Origin: Chloroflexota bacterium
Lineage (GTDB): Bacteria; Chloroflexota; Anaerolineae; UBA4142
Assembly (NCBI GenBank): GCA_016219275.1
Contig: JACRBM010000024.1
Span: forward strand, 62,001 to 126,000
Length of the DNA: 64,000 nucleotides
Reading direction: 5' to 3'
Shown here: positions 3,985 to 29,820 of the stretch, one piece after another
Numbering within the stretch: position 1 is the stretch's first letter
Layout: the number at the start of each line of letters is the position of its first letter
The notes under the pieces: model-generated
Seen by the model: the letters and a program-made list of their open reading frames with translations, nothing else
Told to the model about the DNA's origin: nothing
Database searches by the model: none
Translations under genes and position numbers: made by a program

Positions 3985-6756
3985 GTGGGATTTTACGGTG
4001 GCGGACGACGCATCAATCGCGATGACATGCCCCAAGTCAATTGGGACGAAATTTTCCGGCGGCAACCGCCGAACCTGACGCGCCCAATCTTGATTGGCGC
4101 GGCGCTGCTCTTGGTTTGGATTGTGCTCCAATTTATGCCGCGCCTCTACACCGATTTCAAATGGTTCGAGGAACTCGGGTACGCGAGCGTGTTCACGACC
4201 GAACTGCAAGCACGCGTCGCGATTTTCTTCAGCGCCGCGCTCGCGTTCTTTATCTTTTACGCGATCAACATCGCGATCGCGCGGCGCTTGACGCCGCGCG
4301 TCACCGACGAATCGTCGCGCCTCGCGCAGTTTGCCGCGTTCGCCGGCAAGTCCATCAACTTTCTCCTGCTCGCCGGCGGACTCGTGCTCGCCATTTTCGT
4401 CGGCTTGATCGCGCAGGGACAATGGCTCGTGCTTCTGCGGTACCTCAACGCGGTACCGTTCGGCGCGCTCGATCCTGTTTTCAATCAGGACGCGGCGTTC
4501 TACGTGTTCACACTCCCGGTGTACCAGTTCATCATCAGTTGGTTTAGCGGCGCGATCGTTCTCACCGCGCTGGGGGTCGCCGTCACGTACGTGATGGGGC
4601 TGGGTCACTTGCGCTGGATTGCGGCAGTCAAGGGGCATTTATCCGCGCTGGGTGTCGCATTCCTGGCGTTGAGCGCGTGGAACTATCAACTCGAAATCTA
4701 CAACCTGGTCTATTCGACGCGCGGCGTGGTGTTCGGCGCGAGTTACACCGACGTGAACGCGCAAATTCCGGCGTACAACATCCTCACCGCAATTACGCTG
4801 GCGCTCGCCGGGTTGTTGCTCGTCAACGTGTTCACGCGCGCGCTCAAAGCGATTGGCATCGCGGTCGCGCTGTGGATCGGCGCGTGGATCTTGCTGGGTC
4901 AAGCGTATCCGGATTTCGTGCAGAATTTCGAAGTCAAGCCCAACGAATTTACCAAAGAGCAACCGTACATCAAAAACAATATCGTCTTGACGCGTCAAGC
5001 GTACGCGCTCGACGGGATTCAGGACGCGCCCTACCCTGCCGAAGACGCGCCGACGCCGCAGGACATTCAACGTAGCGCGGACATTATCAACAACATTCGT
5101 CTCGCCGATTATCGCCCGCTCTTGCAAACATACGATCAGATTCAAACGATTCGCACGTACTATGATTTCAACGACGTGGACGTGGATCGGTACACGATCA
5201 ACGGCAAGTATCGGCAAACGATGATCAGCGCGCGCGAACTCGCGCTGAACAAGTTGCCGGAAAAAGCGCAGACCTGGGTCAACCTGCATTTGCTCTACAC
5301 GCACGGCTATGGCGTCGCGCTGTCACCCGTCAACGAATTCACCGCCGACGGCTTGCCGAGTTTACTCGTGAAAGATATTCCGCCGACCGGCACGATTCCG
5401 ATCACACGTCCGGAAATTTATTTCGGCGAGCAAACATCGTCCTATGTTTTCGTCAAGACGAAGGAAAAAGAATTCGATTATCCCAAAGGCGATGAGAACG
5501 CCTTCTCGACGTACACCGGCAAGGGCGGCGTGCCCATCGCGACGATTGGCGATCAATTGATGTTCGCGCTGCGCTTTGGCGATTTCAACATCATGCTCAC
5601 GGACGCACTCACCGCCGACAGTCGCGTGATGTTCAATCGCAACATTCAAACGCGCGTCACTCGCGTCGCGCCGTTCCTGCGCCTCGATCAAGACCCGTAC
5701 CTCGTCATCGCCGACGGGCAACTCTACTGGATTCAAGACGCGTACACGATTTCGGATCGCTATCCGATGAGCGAGCATTACGACGCACGCACGAACTATA
5801 TTCGCAACTCGGTCAAGATCGTGATTGACGCCTACCATGGCACGACGAATTTTTTTATCGCCGAGCCGGATGAGCCGATCCTGAAAGCGTACCGCGCGAT
5901 TTTCCCCGCGCTCTTCAAACCAATTGACCAGATGCCGGCATCTCTGCGCACGCACCTGCGTTATCCCGAAGACTTGTTCTCGATTCAAGCCAAGATGTAT
6001 CAGACGTATCACATGCAAGACGCGCAGGTGTTTTACAACAAGGAAGACTTGTGGGCGATTCCGAACGAGTCCGCCGATGGTACGCCGCAAGCGATGGAGC
6101 CGTACTATGTGATTATGCGATTGCCCGGTGAGACCAAAGAAGAATTCATGTTGATGCAACCATTCACCCCGGCGAAACGGCAGAACATGATCGCGTGGCT
6201 TTCCGTGAAATGCGATGGCGAGGACTATGGCAAGCGGCTCGTCTATCGTTTTCCAAAGGACAAACTGATTTACGGTCCCGAACAAATTCACGCGCGCTTG
6301 AATCAAGATCCAAAAATTTCATCCGAGCTGACCTTGCTCAATCAACGCGGCAGTCGGATTGTGTGGGGCAACTTGCTCGTGATCCCCATCGAGAGATCGG
6401 TGCTGTACGTGCAACCAATGTACCTGCTCGCGGAGCAATCCCAGATTCCACAACTCAAACGTATCGTCGTCGCGACGTCGAACAACATCGTGATGGAAGA
6501 CTCGCTCGCCAACGCGCTCGCGCGCGTGTTCGGCGCGAGCACCGCGCCAGTCGTCACCGCGCCCACGACGACCACGCAACCGACGACGACCACGCCGACG
6601 AACGCAACCGTCGCCGAGTTGGTCAAGCAAGCGAACGAGCGCTACACCAAAGCGCAGGACGCGCTCAAGACCGCGGACTGGGCAACGTACGGCAAAGAGA
6701 TGCAGGAACTGCAAAAGGTGTTGAATCAGTTGAGTCAGTTGACCGGGCAGAAATAA
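3985..6756 (+). CDS. UPF0182 family membrane protein
   Basis: A 923-residue member of the UPF0182 family, found in actinobacteria, cyanobacteria and Chloroflexota, with no established biochemical function. The N-terminal ~300 residues hold about seven hydrophobic helices. The rest is a large domain with family-typical stretches such as IKNNIVLTRQAYALD and VNEFTADGLP. A Thr/Pro-rich linker (around residues 853-868) precedes a helical C-terminal tail. GTG start with GGGAGGTG just upstream. Likely monocistronic from the promoter at 3921. Confidence 0.93.
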   Translation: MGFYGGGRRINRDDMPQVNWDEIFRRQPPNLTRPILIGAALLLVWIVLQFMPRLYTDFKWFEELGYASVFTTELQARVAIFFSAALAFFIFYAINIAIARRLTPRVTDESSRLAQFAAFAGKSINFLLLAGGLVLAIFVGLIAQGQWLVLLRYLNAVPFGALDPVFNQDAAFYVFTLPVYQFIISWFSGAIVLTALGVAVTYVMGLGHLRWIAAVKGHLSALGVAFLALSAWNYQLEIYNLVYSTRGVVFGASYTDVNAQIPAYNILTAITLALAGLLLVNVFTRALKAIGIAVALWIGAWILLGQAYPDFVQNFEVKPNEFTKEQPYIKNNIVLTRQAYALDGIQDAPYPAEDAPTPQDIQRSADIINNIRLADYRPLLQTYDQIQTIRTYYDFNDVDVDRYTINGKYRQTMISARELALNKLPEKAQTWVNLHLLYTHGYGVALSPVNEFTADGLPSLLVKDIPPTGTIPITRPEIYFGEQTSSYVFVKTKEKEFDYPKGDENAFSTYTGKGGVPIATIGDQLMFALRFGDFNIMLTDALTADSRVMFNRNIQTRVTRVAPFLRLDQDPYLVIADGQLYWIQDAYTISDRYPMSEHYDARTNYIRNSVKIVIDAYHGTTNFFIAEPDEPILKAYRAIFPALFKPIDQMPASLRTHLRYPEDLFSIQAKMYQTYHMQDAQVFYNKEDLWAIPNESADGTPQAMEPYYVIMRLPGETKEEFMLMQPFTPAKRQNMIAWLSVKCDGEDYGKRLVYRFPKDKLIYGPEQIHARLNQDPKISSELTLLNQRGSRIVWGNLLVIPIERSVLYVQPMYLLAEQSQIPQLKRIVVATSNNIVMEDSLANALARVFGASTAPVVTAPTTTTQPTTTTPTNATVAELVKQANERYTKAQDALKTADWATYGKEMQELQKVLNQLSQLTGQK

Positions 6757-20330: not shown

Positions 20331-21245
20331 CTATTGCTCAACGCGCGTCCACGGTCGGTAGGTCATCCGGGTAACGCGTTGCGTATACGCATCATCCACC
20401 ACCACAAAGCGAAGTTGAATGGCGTTTGCTCCTTGTTTCGTCACATAGACCCGGTATGTGCCGACCGCGGTGGAATTCGGCTCGCCAGTACTCTGCGGGT
20501 ATTGGATTTTGTACAGATCGCTCTCAAACCAGTACTTAGCAACTGTTTTGATTCCTTTCAGCGCACCGCTGATGGCGGTGGCATACCTTTCACCGTTTGC
20601 CGCATGTTCCCAATGACTCTCTCCAGAAGCAGAAATCACGAGCCAAACGCCGAGCACATCCTCGCTCTTACTTGCCTGAACTTCTGATCCAGCAACCGGC
20701 GCGGTGGTTGGCGCGGGCGCCGCCTTGGCTTGTGCCGCCGCCATCGCGGCTTGGATCTTCGCCAGCGACTCGGGCGTCACGGTTATTGTTTTAGACTTGA
20801 TCTTGCCTCCCTCAAACACAGCATCCTCCACCGCGACGATTGGAGCGACGCCCAGTTTCTTGTAGCTGTCCGTGGAAAATGTACAGGTGTAGGTGATCTT
20901 GTCGCCTGCCACCTTTACATTGCTCAACTCAACGCTAAAGTGGTCGGCGATCAAGCCCTGGAAAAAACCACGGATTTGCTCTTTGCCAGTCCAAACGCCC
21001 GATTGACCCGCGGGCGGGGGCTGCATGGTCTGAGTCGCGGCATCCGCGAAGAAAGCCATCACCGCATCCACGTTGCCGGCATTCAGTACGCCCACCAGAT
21101 CTTTGATCAGCGACGCTGGGTCGGGTGGCGGTACCGGTGTTGGTGGTGGCGGCACTGGCGTTGCGGTCGGTAGCGGCGCGGCGCATGCGACGAGCGCGAT
21201 GAAGCAGAGCGCGAGCACGCAAATCAAAAACAATTTCGTTTTCAT
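20331..21245 (-). CDS. Lipoprotein with SnoaL/NTF2-like domain
   Basis: Encodes 304 residues. The signal MKTKLFLICVLALCFIALVA ends in lipobox VAC, then TPTATPVPPPPTPVPPP. Residues ~45-150 form an NTF2-like domain (LVGVLNAGNVDAVMAFFADAA, GKEQIRGFFQGLI). An Ala/Pro linker precedes a second C-terminal domain (LGVWLVISASGESHW..YRVYVTKQGANAIQLRFVVVDD). Signal peptide and linker DNA are paralogous to the SGNH lipoprotein gene at 18833. Extracytoplasmic; ligand unknown. Confidence 0.78.
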   Translation of the reverse strand: MKTKLFLICVLALCFIALVACAAPLPTATPVPPPPTPVPPPDPASLIKDLVGVLNAGNVDAVMAFFADAATQTMQPPPAGQSGVWTGKEQIRGFFQGLIADHFSVELSNVKVAGDKITYTCTFSTDSYKKLGVAPIVAVEDAVFEGGKIKSKTITVTPESLAKIQAAMAAAQAKAAPAPTTAPVAGSEVQASKSEDVLGVWLVISASGESHWEHAANGERYATAISGALKGIKTVAKYWFESDLYKIQYPQSTGEPNSTAVGTYRVYVTKQGANAIQLRFVVVDDAYTQRVTRMTYRPWTRVEQ

Positions 21246-21606: not shown

Positions 21607-22257
21607 TCACGCCGGTCGCGGCGCGGTTCCGATCATCACTTTACGATCGCGATAGACGAGCATCGCGGTTGCCAGGATTCCGGCGATGACCAGCCCAACG
21701 TCCTCGACGATCCCCCGCGACGCCCATAGAATACCGAGCAGCGCGAACAAGAATGGGACCACGAGCAGGTACTTGGGCAACTTTTTTTCCGTGCATAGAA
21801 ACAGCCCGAACGTTAAGACCGTCGTGGGACAAGGGAACACGCCGACCAACATCGCGCGCGGGTAGATGTGCCCGACGGCATATCCGACCAGTGGATAAAA
21901 GATCGTCGCGTACATGACGAGCGCCAGCCCTGTGACTGAAAAGACATCCGTCCCGATTCGGTACGACATGCTGGGTCTAGCGATGCCAATCAGAAACAGG
22001 ACGCCTTGAATCACGCACAACGCGGCAAGGGCGTATGCCGGCGCGAACATCTGCGCGAAGGGCATCCAGAACATGATCCCCAACCAGAGCCAGAAAAACG
22101 CGAGGATCGCCGCGACGATTCGATCGGAATGCTTGACCTTCTTGGCAGCAACGAACAGCGCAGCGATGATAAGCACGTACGCGACCACTTGCAGGGGCCA
22201 AATCGTGAGGTTGTACTTGGCGAAGGCAGCCCATAGAACTTCCGGATTCAGTTGCAT
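21607..22257 (-). CDS. DUF6064 family membrane protein
   Basis: Encodes 216 residues starting MQLNPEVLWAAFAKYNLTIW, the typical N-terminus of DUF6064 proteins, with about six hydrophobic helices. Function unknown. I chose ATG 22257 because AAGGAG sits 8 nt upstream; the longer frame to 22314 covers a hairpin repeat. It follows the Tat-exported Cys protein with a structured leader between them. Confidence 0.82.
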   Translation of the reverse strand: MQLNPEVLWAAFAKYNLTIWPLQVVAYVLIIAALFVAAKKVKHSDRIVAAILAFFWLWLGIMFWMPFAQMFAPAYALAALCVIQGVLFLIGIARPSMSYRIGTDVFSVTGLALVMYATIFYPLVGYAVGHIYPRAMLVGVFPCPTTVLTFGLFLCTEKKLPKYLLVVPFLFALLGILWASRGIVEDVGLVIAGILATAMLVYRDRKVMIGTAPRPA

Positions 22258-22381: not shown

Positions 22382-23116
22382 TCACAGATTATTGAGCAAC
22401 GTCACCGCTTGCGCGGCAACGTCGCCAGTCAAACGATAACATCGTTCGTTGCGTTCAGATGAGCCGGAACTAAAACCGGACTCTTTGCACCAATTCGCGA
22501 TCGAATCTTTGCAGAGCAGGGAGTTTGCAACACTCGTCACCAGCACCTTGTCCGACCCAACCTGGAAAGCGCGATCCTTGGCGTACTGATTGCTCTGCTC
22601 GCTGGGGAAGGCGAATTTGGTGTACCAATCCGACAGCTCCTTGACCAGCCCGCCATACGCGTAGGTGACCAACGTGATCGCCGCCGATGCGCCATTCAGC
22701 GCGCCGCAAAAACTCCCCAACGCGACGACGCCGCCCTTGCCGTAATACAACAACTCGGTTGGGATTTGGGTGTACGGGAATCCCACTGTTTCGCGCAATG
22801 CTTCGATGATCGCCGCAAATGCGCCATAACCGCACCCGCCCCCAGCGCACCGGAGGTGTCCTTTTTTGCGGACAAGTTCGGGATCAAGTTTGGCGTAGTG
22901 CCAGGGCCATTTCGGCGTCTCTTTAACGATTTCCTTGACAACCTCCTTTGGCACTTCTTTGACGACCTCTTTGATGACTTCAACCGGTACTTCTTTGACA
23001 ATCTCTTTCGGCGCGCAAGAGGTGACGCCAACAATACTGACGCCGGTGACGAAACCGGTCGCGAGCGTTCCGGCATTAATCAAAAAGTGGCGGCGAGAAA
23101 TTGTTTGTTCGTCCAT
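22382..23116 (-). CDS. Tat-exported Cys-rich protein, C_GCAxxG_C_C family
   Basis: Encodes 244 residues. Twin-arginine motif SRRHFLINAGTLATG, a Cys in VTSCAPKE that may be lipidated, then a Val/Lys/Glu linker of about 30 residues (KEVPVEVIKEVVKEVPKEVV). The globular part has CAGGGCGYGAF, GSFCGALNGA, SLLCKDS, WCKESG and ERCYRLTG, matching the redox-active C-GCAxxG-C-C family. No CxxCH haem site is present. AGGAGG lies upstream of ATG 23116. Probably under control of the SARP-type site at 23257-23274. Confidence 0.82.
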   Translation of the reverse strand: MDEQTISRRHFLINAGTLATGFVTGVSIVGVTSCAPKEIVKEVPVEVIKEVVKEVPKEVVKEIVKETPKWPWHYAKLDPELVRKKGHLRCAGGGCGYGAFAAIIEALRETVGFPYTQIPTELLYYGKGGVVALGSFCGALNGASAAITLVTYAYGGLVKELSDWYTKFAFPSEQSNQYAKDRAFQVGSDKVLVTSVANSLLCKDSIANWCKESGFSSGSSERNERCYRLTGDVAAQAVTLLNNL

Positions 23117-23141: not shown

Positions 23142-23213
23142 CAATGCCGCGCGCTAGGTGTCCTCTCGCTAATTTTTTTTGCGAGTGCCTGCCGGACAAT
23201 GGGCGCGCCACAT
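23142..23213 (-). promoter_or_regulatory. Structured leader element, copy A
   Basis: Minus strand: GCGCGCCCAT, TGTCC, GGCAGGCA, CTCGC, A-rich loop, GCGAG, AGGACA, CCTA, GCGCGC. Three nested stems (GCGCGC/GCGCGC, TGTCC/GGACA, CTCGC/GCGAG) again leave GGCAGGCA unpaired. It lies in the 5' leader of the Tat-exported Cys protein gene. Same architecture as copy B at 22315. Confidence 0.5.
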
Positions 23214-23243
23214 CGTTGCCTGCTAGACCCGCTTTTGAACTTC

Positions 23244-23274
23244 ATCTTACAAGGTCACCGTGAAATTACCGTGA
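23244..23274 (-). promoter_or_regulatory. SARP-type direct repeat and -10 element
   Basis: On the minus strand TCACGGT occurs twice (23274-23268 and 23263-23257) with starts exactly 11 bp apart. TAAGAT (23249-23244) follows 7 bp later. SARP/BTAD activators are known to bind heptamer direct repeats at 11-bp pitch about 8 bp upstream of a -10 box. The SARP-type gene ends only ~60 bp upstream. Confidence 0.65.
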
Positions 23275-23288
23275 AATTGGAAAACAAA

Positions 23289-23325
23289 AAAGACCTTCCA
23301 GGTTTCTAAAACCTGGAAGGTCTTT
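23289..23325 (-). terminator. Strong intrinsic terminator after the BTAD regulator
   Basis: Minus-strand stem AAAGACCTTCCAGGT/ACCTGGAAGGTCTTT followed by TTTGTTTT. It separates the regulator from the promoter at 23244-23274. Confidence 0.93.
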
Positions 23326-23332
23326 GCGTTTC

Positions 23333-26300
23333 CTACACGTTTTTCGCATTCTCTAATGCGTACTCGACTGCTTGATCAAGCGAGAGCGCGCGCCCTTCGG
23401 ATCTCGCCTTCTCAAACACCGGGTCACCCAATTGTGCGCGGATGGCTCCCCACTCTTCATCGTAGGTGCCTTTGATGGTCATCGGGTATGCACGCTGAGT
23501 CTCCCAGTGAAAATCCAACGTGCCGAGGATTCGCGCCGCTGGCTCTGGTTTGCCGAGCGGACCGATGCAGAGCGCGATCATTTGCAGAGTCATCACAATG
23601 GCAGAGATATTTCCGGCTTGACGATACAACTGCAATGCTCTCATCGCGCAAGCCATTGCCCGATGTAATTCGCCTTTCCAAAAAACAGCCGCCGCTTGAA
23701 TCATCGCGGCAATCGAATGGTAGCCAACGTGCTGCAACTCTTCGCAGATCGTTATCGCTTCGAGGGTATACGGCTCCGCTCTGTAGACATCCCGCGCGTA
23801 GGTGAGAGCAATCCCCAAATAGATCGCGGTAGCGGCAACGCCAATTTGATTACCCAGCGCGCGATGTTTGTCCATCGCTTGTTGCATCAACAGCACACCG
23901 CGCGCCAGATCGTTTTCGTGATCTTTTTTGGCAAGGAAGAATCCCAGGAACGACATTACCCACGCCGCCATAGTTTCGTCGCCCAGGTCCTGGAATATCT
24001 TCAAACTGGCAGCGCAACAATCTGCGGGATTGCGCCCACCGGGAACCGCCATCGGCAAAAATCCGTACGCCCAGCCCAATTGTTCGAAGGCAAAAGCGCT
24101 TTTCCAACCGTCTTCCGCAGATTGCGCGATGGCGAGCCCCTCTTCGCAAAAACGAATCGCGCTCGCCGGATCAAAGTGCCTCGCCGCGAGAAAACCCGCA
24201 AGGTTAAGCGCATGCGCGTGCAACGCATCCTGCCCCCACGCTTCGGTCTTGGGCAATAGCCGTTCCAGCCACGCGCGTCCCTCTGGCACCAAACCGCGCC
24301 AGGAAAAGAAATTGCGTAAGCCCCACGCGATTCGCAGTGCGATCCGGGGATCCGTTTCAAGCGCGTGCTCGAATGCCGCGCGCAAATCCGCGTAATTCCA
24401 TTCGATCCGCGCTTTCCACTCCAGCGCATCCGCGCGTCCCAGATGCGGATACGCTTGCTCGATCCATTCGACGAAATAATCGCGATGCCGCGTTTGCGCC
24501 TGCTCTGCTTCGCCTGACTCCGCTTGCGCGAATTTTTCGCGCGCGTACTGCCGCACCGTTTCCAACAGCCGATAGCGCGTCTCACTGTCCTTGTGCTCGA
24601 CGACGACGAGGGACTTGTCTATGAGTGAGGTGAGCAAATCCAAGACCCTAGAAGGATAAAGGATGAGGAACGGAGGATGAAGCGCGTTCATTTCACTTTC
24701 ATCCTTCACGCGAAGCGTTCCGCTTTCATCTTTTTGTGCGCACACCGCCTCGACTGCTTTCAACGAAAACCCGCCGGCAAATACCGACAATCGCCGCAAC
24801 AACACGCGCTCGGCATCGGACAGCAAATCGTAGCTCCAATCCATCGCCGCGCGCAGGGTTCGATGACGCGGCAATGCGTCGCGACTACCCCGCGTCAGCA
24901 GATTGAAACAATCATCTAGCCGCGCCGCGATTTCTTGCGCCGACAAGACTTGAAGCCGCGCGGCGGCAAATTCGATGGCAAGCGGAATTCCATCCAAACG
25001 CGAACACACTTGTGCGGCAGGCGCGGCGTTTTCCACCAGCCGCCAGTTTGCCGCGACGGACATGGCGCGTTCAGTGAAAAGTTGAATCGCATCGTACTGG
25101 CGCAATTGGTCGAGCGGCGGCAGGTGTTCCGCGTCCGGCGATGCCAGCGACGGCACACGCCACGCGACTTCGCCGCTGATGTTCAGGATTTCGCGGCTCG
25201 TCGCCATTATTCGCAACTTGGGACACGCGCTTGACAGCGTTCCGATCAACTGTGCGCACGCGCCGAGCAAATGTTCGCAATTGTCAACGACGAGCAACAA
25301 TTCTTTCGCGCGCAAATAATTGGTGAGCACACTGATCAACGCCATCCCCGGCGATTCGCTCAGGTTAAACACCATCGCAACCGTTTGCGGCACGAGCGCG
25401 GGATCGCTCAAGGCGGCGAGATCAACCCACCACACCCCATCGCGGAAATGATTGGTCGCCGCGAGATCCGTCGCCACTTGGATCGCGAGACGCGTCTTGC
25501 CGCATCCACCCGCGCCGGAGAGAGTCAGCAACCGCGTTTTCCCCACCAATTTCTTCAGTTCCTTTTGTTCCCTTTCTCTTCCGACAAAACTGGTCAGCGG
25601 CATCGGTAGATTCCCTAACCAGACGGCATGCGACGGACGACCGGTTTCTTCGGCGCGAATCTTTTCGTACAACGCAATAGTGTCACGCGATGGCGCGACA
25701 TTCAACTCCGCGCGTAACATGCGCTCACACTCGGCGTACTGCTTGAGTGCAGCGGCGCGGTTGCCCATCGCGATATAACAGACGATCAAATGTTGATGCG
25801 CGGCTTCGTTCGCCGGATCGCGCGCGAGGAGTTTCTGTGCAAGCGCGATCGCGTCGGCATAGCGGCTCTGCGAACGCGCGTGTTGAATCAACTGTAACAG
25901 CGCCGCGTGATACTGCGCGCGCACGCATTCGCGTTCTGCAAGAACCCAGTCGTCGTAGAAATCGGGAAGCAGGTCGCCGCGATAATTTTCGATTTTCGAT
26001 TTTAGGTTTTCGCTTTGCGCTTGACTCGCTAAATCGAAAATTTCGCGCGCGTCCACCCAGAGTGGGAACCCAGGATTGATCTGCGCCGTCTCGCGATCCG
26101 CGACAAGAATATCATCGCCGAGATGTTTGCGAATCGTAGCAAGTGCCGTGCGGAGCGAGGAGCGCGCATGCTCGTCAAGCACGTCGCCCCAGAAAAGCGC
26201 CGCCAGTTTTTCGCGGGGATGTTCATCCGGGAAGAGTAAAAGATAGGCGAGGAGCGATTCGATTTTGCGCGTGGGGAGGCGAACGACCTCTCCGTTTCGC

Positions 26301-26371
26301 TGGATGCGAAACGCGCCGAGGAGAAAAAACTGGAGTGAAGGTACATTTGTGGGAGTACGTTGGCTTGCCAT
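23333..26371 (-). CDS. Large SARP-type regulator: BTAD, NB-ARC ATPase, TPR
   Basis: Encodes 1012 residues. The N-terminal ~95 residues form an OmpR-like winged helix (LGAFRIQRNGEVVRLPTRK, REKLAALFWGD), followed by the BTAD domain to ~250, an NB-ARC ATPase (Walker A GAGGCGKT near 300, LLLVVDNCEH, RLDGIPLAIEFAAARL) and a long TPR-like helical part. Such proteins are signal-integrating transcription activators. GGGAGG lies before ATG 26371. Two stretches look like repeat DNA captured in frame: NLKSKIEN (~25985) and KDESEMNALHPPFLILYPSR (~24650-24710). The likely target is the adjacent promoter at 23244-23274. Confidence 0.92.
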   Translation of the reverse strand: MASQRTPTNVPSLQFFLLGAFRIQRNGEVVRLPTRKIESLLAYLLLFPDEHPREKLAALFWGDVLDEHARSSLRTALATIRKHLGDDILVADRETAQINPGFPLWVDAREIFDLASQAQSENLKSKIENYRGDLLPDFYDDWVLAERECVRAQYHAALLQLIQHARSQSRYADAIALAQKLLARDPANEAAHQHLIVCYIAMGNRAAALKQYAECERMLRAELNVAPSRDTIALYEKIRAEETGRPSHAVWLGNLPMPLTSFVGREREQKELKKLVGKTRLLTLSGAGGCGKTRLAIQVATDLAATNHFRDGVWWVDLAALSDPALVPQTVAMVFNLSESPGMALISVLTNYLRAKELLLVVDNCEHLLGACAQLIGTLSSACPKLRIMATSREILNISGEVAWRVPSLASPDAEHLPPLDQLRQYDAIQLFTERAMSVAANWRLVENAAPAAQVCSRLDGIPLAIEFAAARLQVLSAQEIAARLDDCFNLLTRGSRDALPRHRTLRAAMDWSYDLLSDAERVLLRRLSVFAGGFSLKAVEAVCAQKDESGTLRVKDESEMNALHPPFLILYPSRVLDLLTSLIDKSLVVVEHKDSETRYRLLETVRQYAREKFAQAESGEAEQAQTRHRDYFVEWIEQAYPHLGRADALEWKARIEWNYADLRAAFEHALETDPRIALRIAWGLRNFFSWRGLVPEGRAWLERLLPKTEAWGQDALHAHALNLAGFLAARHFDPASAIRFCEEGLAIAQSAEDGWKSAFAFEQLGWAYGFLPMAVPGGRNPADCCAASLKIFQDLGDETMAAWVMSFLGFFLAKKDHENDLARGVLLMQQAMDKHRALGNQIGVAATAIYLGIALTYARDVYRAEPYTLEAITICEELQHVGYHSIAAMIQAAAVFWKGELHRAMACAMRALQLYRQAGNISAIVMTLQMIALCIGPLGKPEPAARILGTLDFHWETQRAYPMTIKGTYDEEWGAIRAQLGDPVFEKARSEGRALSLDQAVEYALENAKNV

Positions 26372-26453
26372 TTTTGCCTCCCGACAAAAAATGTCATCGT
26401 ACACCGAGTACCCAAATTGTACGACAGATGTTTGATCCTGTCAATGAAATGCA

Positions 26454-26484
26454 AACCCGGCGTCTCAATGAGAGACACCGGGTT
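26454..26484 (-). terminator. Hairpin after the DsrE-like gene
   Basis: AACCCGG..TCTC-AATGA-GAGA..CCGGGTT, placed just past the stop of the DsrE gene. The U-tract is weak (TTTGCATTT on the minus strand). Confidence 0.6.
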
Positions 26485-26505
26485 CATTTCTGTACGCGTC
26501 ACGCG

Positions 26506-27006
26506 TTAGATGAAAATGATCTGCGCGCCTTCGGTCATGTCCATGAAATCGCCGGCGGTGACGATGTCAAGCACGCCGTCAACGAAATCGTCCTTCGTCA
26601 GTCCGAACATGTCCACCGACATTTTGCACGCGTACATTTTTGCGCCCGCATCCACGAGCATTTGCAAATACTCGCGTACGGTCGGCACGCCGAGTTTTTT
26701 CATCTTGCTGTTCATCAAGGTTGTCGCAAACGCGGTCATCCCTGGAATCACGCCCGCGATTTGCGGAATGCCGATGTAACCCGGCACACCCATCATGTTC
26801 ATCTTCATGCTGGCGTTGCTAATCGGCGGGATTTCGAGATGGTCCACGCGATCCTTGTTAATCATGTCCAAGCCCCAGAACGTGAAAAAGATCGTCACGT
26901 CAATGCCATTGCCCAGCGCCGCCCAGCCCATCACGAGTGCGGGATACGCCATGTCCAAGTTGCCTTTCGAACAAATGAATGCGACCTTGCGATTCTCGTC
27001 TGCCAT
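26506..27006 (-). CDS. DsrE/DsrF-like (DsrE2-type) protein
   Basis: A 166-residue DsrE-fold protein: VAFICSKGNLDMAYPALVMG at the N-terminus and VDAGAKMYACKMSVDMFGL with the conserved active Cys. DsrE2 proteins act as sulfur carriers or persulfide handlers at membranes. It is the last gene of the ArsR-SQR-DUF1641-DsrC-DsrE unit. GGAG RBS before ATG 27006. Confidence 0.9.
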   Translation of the reverse strand: MADENRKVAFICSKGNLDMAYPALVMGWAALGNGIDVTIFFTFWGLDMINKDRVDHLEIPPISNASMKMNMMGVPGYIGIPQIAGVIPGMTAFATTLMNSKMKKLGVPTVREYLQMLVDAGAKMYACKMSVDMFGLTKDDFVDGVLDIVTAGDFMDMTEGAQIIFI

Positions 27007-27102
27007 TTCGATTTCTCCTTTGAAAATTCATTGCCCGCGAAGGGCGCCAAGGTTTTGGAGAGATTCTTCGTGACCGTGGTGTTCTTCGTGGGACAGTTTT
27101 TT

Positions 27103-27417
27103 TTACACGCAACCTTCGGGTTTGCCGAGACCGGAAATTTTCGCGACTTTTTTCGCGGGACCTTTGGGGAACCACGCGAACAAATCCTTGGTGGATACGC
27201 CAGCGCCGGTTGTGATTTGACGCAACGTCGGCGCTTTGCCGCTGCCCGCGCTCGCGCGACAAAAATCAATGATCTTCCAGTGATTCGCAGTTAATTCGGC
27301 GATGCCTTCTTCCTTCGCCATCTCTACCGCGATCTCTTTGCTCCACTCGCTCGGATTCGTCATGAATCCTTCGTCGTTCACTTGCACGGTCTTGCCCGCG
27401 ATTGTTTTCGTTGCCAT
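27103..27417 (-). CDS. DsrC/TusE family sulfur-carrier protein
   Basis: A 104-residue DsrC fold: EGFMTNPSEWSKEIA, AELTANHWKIIDFCR, LFAWFPKGPAKKVAKISG and the C-terminal KPEGCV. The penultimate Cys is kept. The second DsrC cysteine, about ten residues earlier, is absent (KKVAKISG), so it resembles single-Cys TusE-like carriers rather than the dissimilatory sulfite reductase partner. AAGGAGG before ATG 27417. Sulfur relay within this cluster is inferred. Confidence 0.92.
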   Translation of the reverse strand: MATKTIAGKTVQVNDEGFMTNPSEWSKEIAVEMAKEEGIAELTANHWKIIDFCRASAGSGKAPTLRQITTGAGVSTKDLFAWFPKGPAKKVAKISGLGKPEGCV

Positions 27418-27435
27418 CGTTTGCCTCCTTAAATG

Positions 27436-27474
27436 TATAACAAATTTCATGGCAAGTTGGAAACTTGCCCTACG
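27436..27474. repeat. Dispersed hairpin repeat (GGCAAGTTGG type)
   Basis: GGCAAGTTGGAAACTTGCC followed by CTAC between the DUF1641 and DsrC genes. Same family as the 52-bp array at 3.07 kb. Confidence 0.8.
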
Positions 27475-27475
27475 G

Positions 27476-28144
27476 TCACGCTTGCGACCCGACGACACTC
27501 AGCACGCGCATCGTCAGCGCCAAGCCGCGGCGCACCGCCGGATCGCGCATTTGATTCATCAGCGCGAACAGCGACGTGTCCACCGGCTTTTCGATTTCGC
27601 TTTGCGCGATCATCAACGTGTTACGCACGAACGTCATAATCTCCGGCTGGGTCATGTCTTTGACGACGTTCAGAATCAGGACGACATTCTCACCCAGCTT
27701 TTTCACATCGTCCTCGCTAAACGAGGTGACGATGTTGTCCATGATTTGGATGCCGCCCTGCGCGAAGGTGAAATAGCCCTTGCGTTCCATCACCTCGAGC
27801 GTGTCCACTGCTTTGCCGAATGCCTGGTCGGTGAGCGGACTCATCGTCTCGATTAGTTCCATCGCGCTTTCAAGTTGGTCGAGCATTTTTTCGAGATTGC
27901 GTCCGTTGCGTAGCAATCGTTTGAGCAAGCGCAGTAAATCATTGAGGTCAACGTACTCTTGCACCTCTTCCAACTGCTCGACGGTCAAGCGAAATGCGTC
28001 GTTTGCGATCGGCATCAGATCGCGCATCAATTCTTCGCGATCACGGCGACCGCGTTCGGCGGCTTGGGCTTGCTCGGTCAAGTACTGAATTTGCGTCGAG
28101 AGCGCGTCTACTTTTTGGTTGAGGTCAGCCATCGTCTGATCCAT
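27476..28144 (-). CDS. DUF1641 family protein
   Basis: A 222-residue mainly helical protein. It has an N-terminal coiled coil (LNQKVDALSTQIQYLTEQAQ) and the DUF1641 core (GYFTFAQGGIQIMDNIVTSF, MTQPEIMTFVRNTLMI). DUF1641 genes commonly sit next to sulfide:quinone oxidoreductase or formate dehydrogenase genes, as here. It starts at ATG 28144 after TAGGAGG, 8 bp after the SQR stop. Probably an accessory or membrane-docking subunit (inference). Confidence 0.88.
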   Translation of the reverse strand: MDQTMADLNQKVDALSTQIQYLTEQAQAAERGRRDREELMRDLMPIANDAFRLTVEQLEEVQEYVDLNDLLRLLKRLLRNGRNLEKMLDQLESAMELIETMSPLTDQAFGKAVDTLEVMERKGYFTFAQGGIQIMDNIVTSFSEDDVKKLGENVVLILNVVKDMTQPEIMTFVRNTLMIAQSEIEKPVDTSLFALMNQMRDPAVRRGLALTMRVLSVVGSQA

Positions 28145-28152
28145 TGCGCCTC

Positions 28153-29388
28153 CTATTTGCTCCACTTGCCCGCCATGCTCATTTTCGCCGGCAGCGGCAG
28201 TTCTTGTCCCTTGAGCAGAATGTTCCAGTACATCCAGCGGAACATCAACTTGCCCCAGTGATTCGCTTCCGATTCTTGCAACAACGAAAATGGTCCGACG
28301 CCGGGTAGCGGATAGTGACCGGGCAAGGGTTCGACATCATAATTGAAATCAATCAGCAACCCTTTGCCGAAACCCGATTCGATGAAACAATTTGCGTGAC
28401 CGTCGAACGTCGGCAACATGTCCAAGCCGTCAATGTAACGCGTAAAGTTCTCGCTGAAACAGTCCACCGCAAAGTGCGCGACCGAACCAGCTTTCGAGGT
28501 TGGCAATGACGCGGCATCGCCGAGCGCGAACACGTTCGAGTACTTGGGCGAGACGAACGTGTGCTTGTCCACTGCGACATAGTTGAGTTCGTCGCCCATC
28601 CCGGAACGAGCGATCGCTTCGTCGCCCATATTGACCGGCACGCTGACGAGCAAATCGTACTCGATCTCGCGTTCGTCATACGAGATGATTTTCTTGGCGT
28701 CGGGAGAAACTTCCATCAACATGAACTCGGGTTCGATCTTGACGCCTTTGCGATCCAGAATATCGCCGAGATGTTTGGACGCGGTCGGTTTGGTGAACGC
28801 GCCGGGGAGCGGCGTCGCGTAGATCAACTCGACACGGTCGCGCATGCCTTGCTCGTGAAAGAACCAATCGGCGAGCATGATGAATTCGAGCGGCGCGACC
28901 GGGCACTTGATCGGATTCTCGACGACGTTGAGCACCAAGCGTCCGCCTTGCCAGGTTCGCAAATGTTTGGCGAGCGCCAGCGCGCCTTCGACGGTGTAGA
29001 AATCGTAGATGGATTTGTACCACTCGTGTTCGTTCAAACCGGTCGTTTGCTCCGGGTGCGTGCGCGTGCCGGTCGCAATCACGAGGAAATCGTAATTGAG
29101 ATAGCGCCCGTCCTTCGCCAACTTGACGCGATTGTGTTCCGGTTCGATCACGTCAATCGCGGACGTGATGAACTCGACGCCGGGCGGAATGAAATCGCGC
29201 TTGGGTTTGATGACGTCGTTCTTGCTGTACATCCCAAACGGGATGAACAGAAAACCTGGCTGATAATAGTGCGTTTCGTGTTGGTCTACGATGGTGATGT
29301 GCCAGTCGTCCGAATCCAACAACCGGCTCAACCGATTCACAACCATCGTGCCAGCCGTGCCAGCGCCGAGGACTAACAGTTTTTTCAT
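28153..29388 (-). CDS. sqr: Sulfide:quinone oxidoreductase-like flavoprotein
   Basis: A 411-residue FAD enzyme. N-terminal dinucleotide fold LVLGAGTAGTMVVNRL, FAD/NAD motif VIATGTRTHP, and VFALGDAASLPTSKAGS near 287. Candidate redox cysteines are Cys162 (IKCPVAPLEF) and Cys334 (HANCFIESG), as in SQR. The C-terminal part is amphipathic with aromatic residues, fitting monotopic membrane binding. It would oxidise sulfide and reduce quinone; subtype not assigned. First structural gene after ArsR. Confidence 0.9.
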   Translation of the reverse strand: MKKLLVLGAGTAGTMVVNRLSRLLDSDDWHITIVDQHETHYYQPGFLFIPFGMYSKNDVIKPKRDFIPPGVEFITSAIDVIEPEHNRVKLAKDGRYLNYDFLVIATGTRTHPEQTTGLNEHEWYKSIYDFYTVEGALALAKHLRTWQGGRLVLNVVENPIKCPVAPLEFIMLADWFFHEQGMRDRVELIYATPLPGAFTKPTASKHLGDILDRKGVKIEPEFMLMEVSPDAKKIISYDEREIEYDLLVSVPVNMGDEAIARSGMGDELNYVAVDKHTFVSPKYSNVFALGDAASLPTSKAGSVAHFAVDCFSENFTRYIDGLDMLPTFDGHANCFIESGFGKGLLIDFNYDVEPLPGHYPLPGVGPFSLLQESEANHWGKLMFRWMYWNILLKGQELPLPAKMSMAGKWSK

Positions 29389-29487: not shown

Positions 29488-29820
29488 TTAGGCAATCGCG
29501 TCCGCGAGCGCGCTGCGTTTATTCAAATGATCGGCGAGCACCTCGCGCAGCAAATCGAGCGCCTTGATGATGCGTTTGTCGGCGAGCGTGTAGATGATGT
29601 TCGCTCCTTTGCGTTCGGCGATCACCATGCCGCGCTCGCGCAGAATCTTCAAGTGCCGCGACACCGTCGGTTGAGGCATCTCCAATAATTCGGCAAGTTC
29701 CATCACGTTTTGGGGATTTTCGAACAGGGCGTATAAAATCGCGATGCGTTTTGGATCGGACAGTCCTCCGCAGATTTCCGCGTGGAGATGATTAATCTCG
29801 CCGAGTAGTTTTTTATCCAT
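29488..29820 (-). CDS. ArsR family transcriptional regulator
   Basis: A 110-residue winged-helix repressor: LSDPKRIAILYAL, MELAELLEMPQPTVSRHLKILRERG and VIAERKGANIIYTL. No metal-site ELCVCDL motif is visible; a single Cys lies in EICGGL. GGAGAA precedes ATG 29820. A 20-bp palindrome sits 22 bp upstream of its start, suggesting autoregulation and control of the sqr cluster, perhaps by reactive sulfur (inference). Confidence 0.9.
   Translation of the reverse strand: MDKKLLGEINHLHAEICGGLSDPKRIAILYALFENPQNVMELAELLEMPQPTVSRHLKILRERGMVIAERKGANIIYTLADKRIIKALDLLREVLADHLNKRSALADAIA

Follow-up and report, generated by a model that had tools for sequence, protein, structure and literature searches.

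This analysis concerns a regulator gene and a direct repeat lying just downstream of it in a 64,000-nt stretch of DNA, referred to here as the window, from a member of the Chloroflexota, class Anaerolineae (assembly GCA_016219275.1, contig JACRBM010000024.1, positions 62,001 to 126,000). All window features described are on the minus strand. The gene (23336–26371, stop codon at 23333–23335) codes for a protein of 1012 aa that, from Pfam matches and an AlphaFold model, is a large Streptomyces antibiotic regulatory protein (SARP) with an OmpR-like DNA-binding domain followed by BTAD, NB-ARC and TPR regions. Beyond it an intrinsic terminator with a 17-bp stem and a T tail (23289–23325) separates the stop codon from two perfect 11-nt copies of AATTTCACGGT arranged head to tail (23278–23257): an upstream copy at 23268–23278 with the core TTTCACGGT at 23268–23276, and a downstream copy at 23257–23267 with the core at 23257–23265. 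Seven nt past the repeat lies a −10 element, TAAGAT (23244–23249), and then the gene that we regard as the target (22385–23116, 244 aa). An earlier note on this DNA had described the repeat as heptamers, TCACGGT, starting 11 bp apart, 7 bp before TAAGAT and just past the terminator of the regulator; on rechecking, the spacing and the intervening hairpin are as claimed, and TCACGGT-N4-TCACGGT occurs without mismatch only once in the window (23274–23257). No sigma70-like box pair that would give the target promoter a consensus −35 was found between 22250 and 23500.

The BTAD-NB-ARC-TPR architecture proposed in the note is borne out by Pfam, in which the BTAD domain scores 71.8 bits (cut-off 22.1) and the NB-ARC domain, residues 273–515, scores 41.2 bits (cut-off 23.5); of the TPR matches, TPR_19 at residues 167–211 exceeds its cut-off and TPR_12 at the C-terminus (19.8 against 30.1 bits) does not, but in an orthologue (L086, see below) this end is TPR. 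The order of OmpR-like winged helix and BTAD places the protein among the SARPs, and the NB-ARC and TPR regions place it in the large subtype; with 82 bits against a curated cut-off of 1430 it falls far short of the AfsR equivalog model (NF053617). The N-terminal fold matches those of AfsR and EmbR. The model of residues 1–250 (mean predicted local distance difference test score 86.2) retrieves AfsR (PDB 8k60, 8hvr) with a Foldseek E-value of 8.9e-12, with VIA Z 19.9 and root-mean-square deviation 3.3 over 233 residues, and for EmbR Z is 17.7 over 230 residues.

The target protein belongs to the C_GCAxxG_C_C family (PF09719, 35.6 bits, gathering cut-off 27). Its N-terminal SRRHFL is the twin-arginine motif of a twin-arginine translocation (Tat) signal, and the VTSC at the end of the signal is lipobox-like. 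A split-Soret cytochrome c was considered and rejected, as the score against NF047622 is 123.3 where 400 bits are needed and the translation contains no CxxCH. Second in the unit, as in the note, is a gene for a DUF6064 membrane protein (21610–22257; PF19540, 140.7 bits), and third is a SnoaL-like lipoprotein gene (20334–21245; PF12680, 40.9 bits) which, standing 361 nt further on, may have a promoter of its own.

The repeat box and its orthologues

As a duplication alone the repeat is unremarkable, and by itself it is weak evidence: at pitches of 8–24 the window contains 13 tandem duplications in which 11 or more bases match (the AATTTCACGGT pair being the only one at pitch 11), and a motif scan of the window allowing up to three mismatches found four occurrences where the shuffled level is 6.13. 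Across the 6.16-Mb draft genome a search for TTTCACGGT-N2-TTTCACGGT returned one exact site and four others with three mismatches, which is about chance by calculation, and TANNNT at +7 was found at none of these four. A large regulon for this regulator is thus not supported. TCACGGT-N4-TCACGGT, for which the note had advised a genome-wide search, is not the right motif for one, since half-site dialects differ between regulators and the present regulator appears to have only one site in its genome. What raises the box above chance is that it is conserved in orthologues and recurs beside other regulators of the family.

The nearest relatives of the window genome are Chloroflexota metagenome-assembled genomes, many of them from groundwater and several labelled Anaerolineales. 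With the target protein and the regulator as queries, a search of 60 related genomes yielded three loci at which the regulator precedes the same target, in G001 (L007/L086), G011 (L008/L111) and G012 (L009/L118). At all four orthologous loci, including that in the window, a hairpin comes after the regulator, and then a pair of 9-nt repeats with a pitch of 11 bp, separated by exactly 7 nt from TANNNT. The window box is TTTCACGGT-AA-TTTCACGGT-N7-TAAGAT and the others are TTTAACGAT-TA-TTTTACGAT-N7-TAAACT, TTTAACGAT-GA-TTTAACGAT-N7-TATGTT and TTTAACGGT-AA-TTTAACGAT-N7-TATGCT; the letters of each copy vary between loci, and the pitch, the gap and the −10 are constant. The conserved half-site is TTTNACGRT, TCACGGT being only the version in the window genome. 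The hairpins at the terminator position are of 15 bp in L111 and L118, and L007/L086 has by eye the same hairpin sequence. DUF6064 is syntenic at all three loci (L086, L111, L118) and the SnoaL gene at two of them (L086, L111). No site was found upstream of nine related target-family genes that are not beside the regulator (0/9). At L086 (G001:C48) the frame of the orthologous regulator is broken, being open to 651 aa with the TPR part in another frame, and the site is intact; the break is either real decay or an assembly error.

Sites behind other BTAD regulators

The wider survey used no consensus: the 300 nt 3′ of each regulator stop codon were scanned for a 9-mer repeat of at least 7/9 identity with TANNNT 6–8 nt further on. 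The loci from the regulator search of the 60 genomes were mainly of the window's family or places matched by the TTTNACGRT pattern. A second set came from named genome contigs (27 of its 79 loci were dropped as duplicates of the first set), and a third consisted of 80 regulators, 11 of them likewise dropped as duplicates, taken in list order and from outside the window's family from the BTAD match list of 396 genomes of the class, 306 of which have a BTAD match at E ≤ 1e-15. Zones shorter than 60 nt were dropped and one duplicate zone was merged in the total. Pitch-11 sites are present in 32 of the 130 distinct Chloroflexota regulator 3′ zones, made up of 13/34 close and 1/16 distant regulators in the first set, 9/21 in the second and 9/60 in the more distant third, with shuffle means for these four groups of 0.27, 0.02, 0.13 and 0.43 respectively. 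L086 is not among the 13/34 on account of its broken frame; in an earlier pass it was given a hand-placed zone, and it was left out of the table of pitches and gaps. The other pitches from 9 to 14 gave 0–2 each in the 50 zones of the first set and 0 or 1 in the second and in the third. At 8/9 identity or better 19 zones have pitch 11 and gap 7, and no other combination of pitch (8–15) and gap has more than one. The opposite-strand reading of the 130 zones gave 3/130, and control long open reading frames gave 8/338, four of which (L085, L086, L106 and L122) are sites of the same type. Regulators from outside the phylum, for the most part of Mesorhizobium and further Proteobacteria, gave 0/27 in the same scan.

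The 32 sites lie 1–258 nt past the stop codon (median 71.5), and in 17 of them a stem of at least 8 bp stands in between. When the 60 genomes were searched for TTTNACGRT-N2-TTTNACGRT with at most one mismatch, 25 places were found; the seven exact matches are all in the window's family, and several stand behind other regulators of the family. The pattern combined with a −10 and with bases 4 and 5 left free gave 33 matches in 24 of the 396 class genomes, and 10 matches when reversed. Of the 33, 23 were examined, three from inside the window's family and 20 from beyond both its family and its order. At 8 of the 20 a regulator match lies no more than 1.5 kb away, five of these being in divergent arrangement and one weak (L150).

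Among the genes behind the sites are those for lipoproteins and other exported proteins, a peptide-binding SBP_bac_5 protein, beta-helix and SnoaL-like proteins, cupins, an OpgC-like membrane protein and an NmrA-like protein; by eye, a far relative (L304) has a DUF6064-like N-terminus encoded behind its own repeat. Export of the targets is a tendency and not a rule. One contig, G000:C44 (L079–L081), carries several BTAD-NB-ARC-TPR and NB-ARC-TPR paralogues together with two small secreted proteins that are paralogues of each other and both preceded by a repeat box. A box before an OpgC-like gene stands behind RelA/SpoT in the window's genome (L085, G000:C105:35146) and behind SARP fragments in G010:C160 (L106/L159); the L085 box is perhaps an orphan left after loss or movement of its regulator.

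Register with AfsR, proposed mechanism and alternatives

According to PMC10936776, the AfsR box at afsS spans −40 to −19 and consists of two 11-bp repeats at a promoter with a poor −35. AfsR binds there as a side-by-side dimer, engaging region 4 of sigma, with base contacts by R92 at T−38 and by T88 at −36. With −12 assigned to the first T of TAAGAT, the window half-sites occupy −39 to −31 and −28 to −20, and T−38 and the variable base −36 coincide with bases 2 and 4 of TTTNACGRT. The recognition helix of the window regulator (H66-84 of the model, residues 66–84, encoded at 26120–26176) was located by DSSP of the model and a phmmer alignment with 8hvr_I, and in the alignment R87, T88, R94 and K95 of AfsR are retained as R74, T75, R81 and K82, R92 being replaced by T79. 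For small and LAL-type SARPs the same source gives heptameric repeats at 11-bp pitch that overlap the −35 region, the 3′ one some 8 bp short of the −10 (PMC10936776). A SARP target has direct repeats at 11-bp pitch with the last of them 7–8 bp from the −10, and the window site, with its 7 nt, has this form; the claim that its geometry is one known for SARPs holds: it equals the published geometry, and the same module stands behind many BTAD regulators of the Chloroflexota and behind none of the 27 from other phyla.

Like AfsR of S. coelicolor at the afsS promoter, the system has a SARP domain joined to NB-ARC (NOD) and TPR regions, and two 11-bp-pitch direct repeats in a −35 region with no good −35. 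Unlike AfsR, with which the regulator is only about 24% identical, it has the half-site TTTNACGRT instead of CGTT(T/C)ATCGNN, a predicted target that is the adjoining C_GCAxxG_C_C gene and not afsS, one exact genome site and no visible regulon, and no antibiotic genes evident among the neighbours examined. ActII-ORF4, DnrI and PimR share the direct repeats at 11-bp pitch at the −35 region but have other half-sites, and the large architecture and terminator-insulated downstream target are peculiar to the present case in that comparison. EmbR of Mycobacterium tuberculosis has the same fold of OmpR-like DNA-binding domain and BTAD but carries FHA in place of NB-ARC and TPR.

Judged on the sequence comparisons, it is very probable that the large SARP activates the adjoining −10-only promoter through the repeats, and that the locus exemplifies a layout widespread in the Anaerolineae, of regulator, terminator, private site and target. 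On this reading each large SARP of the class would be a dedicated activator of the adjoining gene, often one for an exported protein. The suggestion in the note that a SARP acts on the adjacent repeat is the best explanation and is largely supported, with the heptamer corrected to a half-site TTTNACG(RT). The sequence itself shows the parts, how they are conserved and that they go with this class of regulator. Binding, activation, contact with sigma, gating by the NB-ARC and TPR regions and the direction of regulation are steps that we infer, and the mechanism of sigma adaptation is carried over from AfsR because the promoter register coincides. The regulator would be made constitutively from its own sigma70-type promoter, for which TTGACA-N17-TACAAT (26416–26444, 11 of 12 consensus bases) is the candidate; the orthologue in L118 is by eye preceded by an identical TTGACA-N17-TACAAT. 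The NB-ARC/TPR part would restrain the protein until a signal arrives, whereupon a pair of adjacent molecules would occupy the repeats, where a −35 would otherwise be, and dock region 4 of the housekeeping sigma, switching on the −10-only promoter. The mRNA made would encode the Tat lipoprotein-like C_GCAxxG_C_C protein and probably DUF6064.

Several findings weigh against this interpretation. By the scan criterion 98 of the 130 regulator flanks have no site, and sites are rarer behind the more distant regulators (10/76). A clear gene is not present behind every site, since for 7/32 the caller of open reading frames gave no target, and a hydrophobic N-terminus is only modestly commoner in genes with a site (13/25) than in those without (19/62), in a test that misses the three Tat proteins. 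Finally, R92 of AfsR, which contacts T−38, is T79 in the window regulator, and this position varies.

Direct repeats of 11 bp are common to proteins of the OmpR fold generally. Another winged-helix protein of the OmpR/PhoB type, such as a response regulator, might then bind the box with the SARP as bystander or competitor, and at afsS PhoP and AfsR share a site, PhoP binding on the AfsR box according to the review PMC10972967. However, BTAD regulators of many families are accompanied by this geometry, in two arrangements (behind the gene and divergent), and half-sites differ between regulators within one genome, where one response regulator should leave the same sequence everywhere; this explanation is in our judgement improbable. 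It is highly improbable that the repeat represses, the SARP forming a roadblock at the promoter that a signal releases. The direction of regulation is not readable from sequence, and the same review mentions a SARP, Atr32, that has a negative function (PMC10972967), but a promoter with no consensus −35, in the register of the AfsR activator complex, should be weak when unaided. That the repeat is a functionless product of chance or slippage, as the 13 similar tandem duplications in the window and the chance-level motif count might suggest, is scarcely credible and is refuted as far as comparison allows, since orthologues keep position, pitch, 7-nt gap and −10 with changed letters and 32/130 zones have a site where fewer than one is expected.

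Other features around the regulator are as follows. Upstream of its promoter a 15-bp hairpin (26452–26486) ends the preceding DsrE2 transcript. Autoregulation was considered and dropped, the pitch-11 matches 5′ of regulator genes (2/50 in the first set, then 1/24 and 3/67) being taken as noise; one of the 2/50, L113, is an artefact, namely its own downstream site with the gene cut by the contig end. The window terminator (GACCTTCCAGGTTT...AAACCTGGAAGGTC) has an almost identical counterpart in the equivalent position in L007 (G001, another genus), as if it were a dispersed terminator repeat. On the same strand upstream of the SARP gene is a type III sulfide:quinone reductase gene (28156–29388; 632 bits in the 'selenoprotein subtype' model, cut-off 525) accompanied by DUF1641, TusE/DsrC, DsrE2 and an ArsR-type regulator (26509–28147 and 29491–29817). 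Assignment of the target unit to sulfide oxidation was abandoned because these sulfur genes are not syntenic elsewhere, sulfide:quinone reductase, DsrE2, TusE and ArsR having no match around the three orthologous loci. The DUF6064 gene (21610–22257) is 97.7% identical to that at 5839–6486 of L111 (G011, another genus) and the adjoining target protein 87.7%, a difference that is likely to reflect gene conversion or recent exchange affecting part of the unit.

Half-site dialects and their meaning

The half-sites vary from regulator to regulator (TTTAACG, TTTGACG, TTTGTCG, TGTCACG, TTTGATG, TTTTGCG, TTGGACG and others), and mostly the two halves of a site are alike. Residue 75, which corresponds to T88 of AfsR, pairs with base 4 in a chemically sensible manner. 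It is V, F or Y with A at base 4 in 6/6 regulators, one half-site having T; this V/F/Y label needs three changes on the tree. Lysine or arginine goes with C in 3/3 of the initial set, and threonine mostly with C or G, sometimes with A in one half. A prediction (hydrophobic to A, K/R to C, T to C/G) was fixed before unseen regulators were inspected. Among these T to C/G held in 5/5, all with closely similar helices, and no hydrophobic case occurred; the prediction did not cover four further cases, in which N and H occurred with A and two regulators with D had half-sites in another register. Two results count against such a code: K/R to C failed on the unseen regulators (0/2, both weak 7/9 sites), and residue 75 with base 4 is not in the top 25 of a mutual-information scan of 702 residue–base pairs, a scan that we read as dominated by clade structure. 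The pairing of residue 75 with base −36 is thus suggestive, a lead only. We also entertain, tentatively and as something rather short of probable, a broader picture in which the large SARPs of the Anaerolineae are portable cassettes, each a private switch for an adjoining, often exported, terminator-insulated protein, with residue 75 and base −36 co-varying so that the protein would reveal its site.

Streptomyces already provides examples of both this type of regulator and its promoter geometry. In the open-access full-text literature, as far as that was accessible, no paper was found that deals with their target sites in the Chloroflexota. What appears to be new is a predicted target site of this regulator class in the phylum, the recurring cassette of regulator, terminator and target, and the dialects. 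The AfsR promoter geometry would thereby be extended beyond the Actinobacteria, and the varying half-sites form a natural data set on the choice of DNA by SARPs. In the class a genome commonly has several to many BTAD regulators, and a sequence rule that names the promoter and the gene makes each of them testable.

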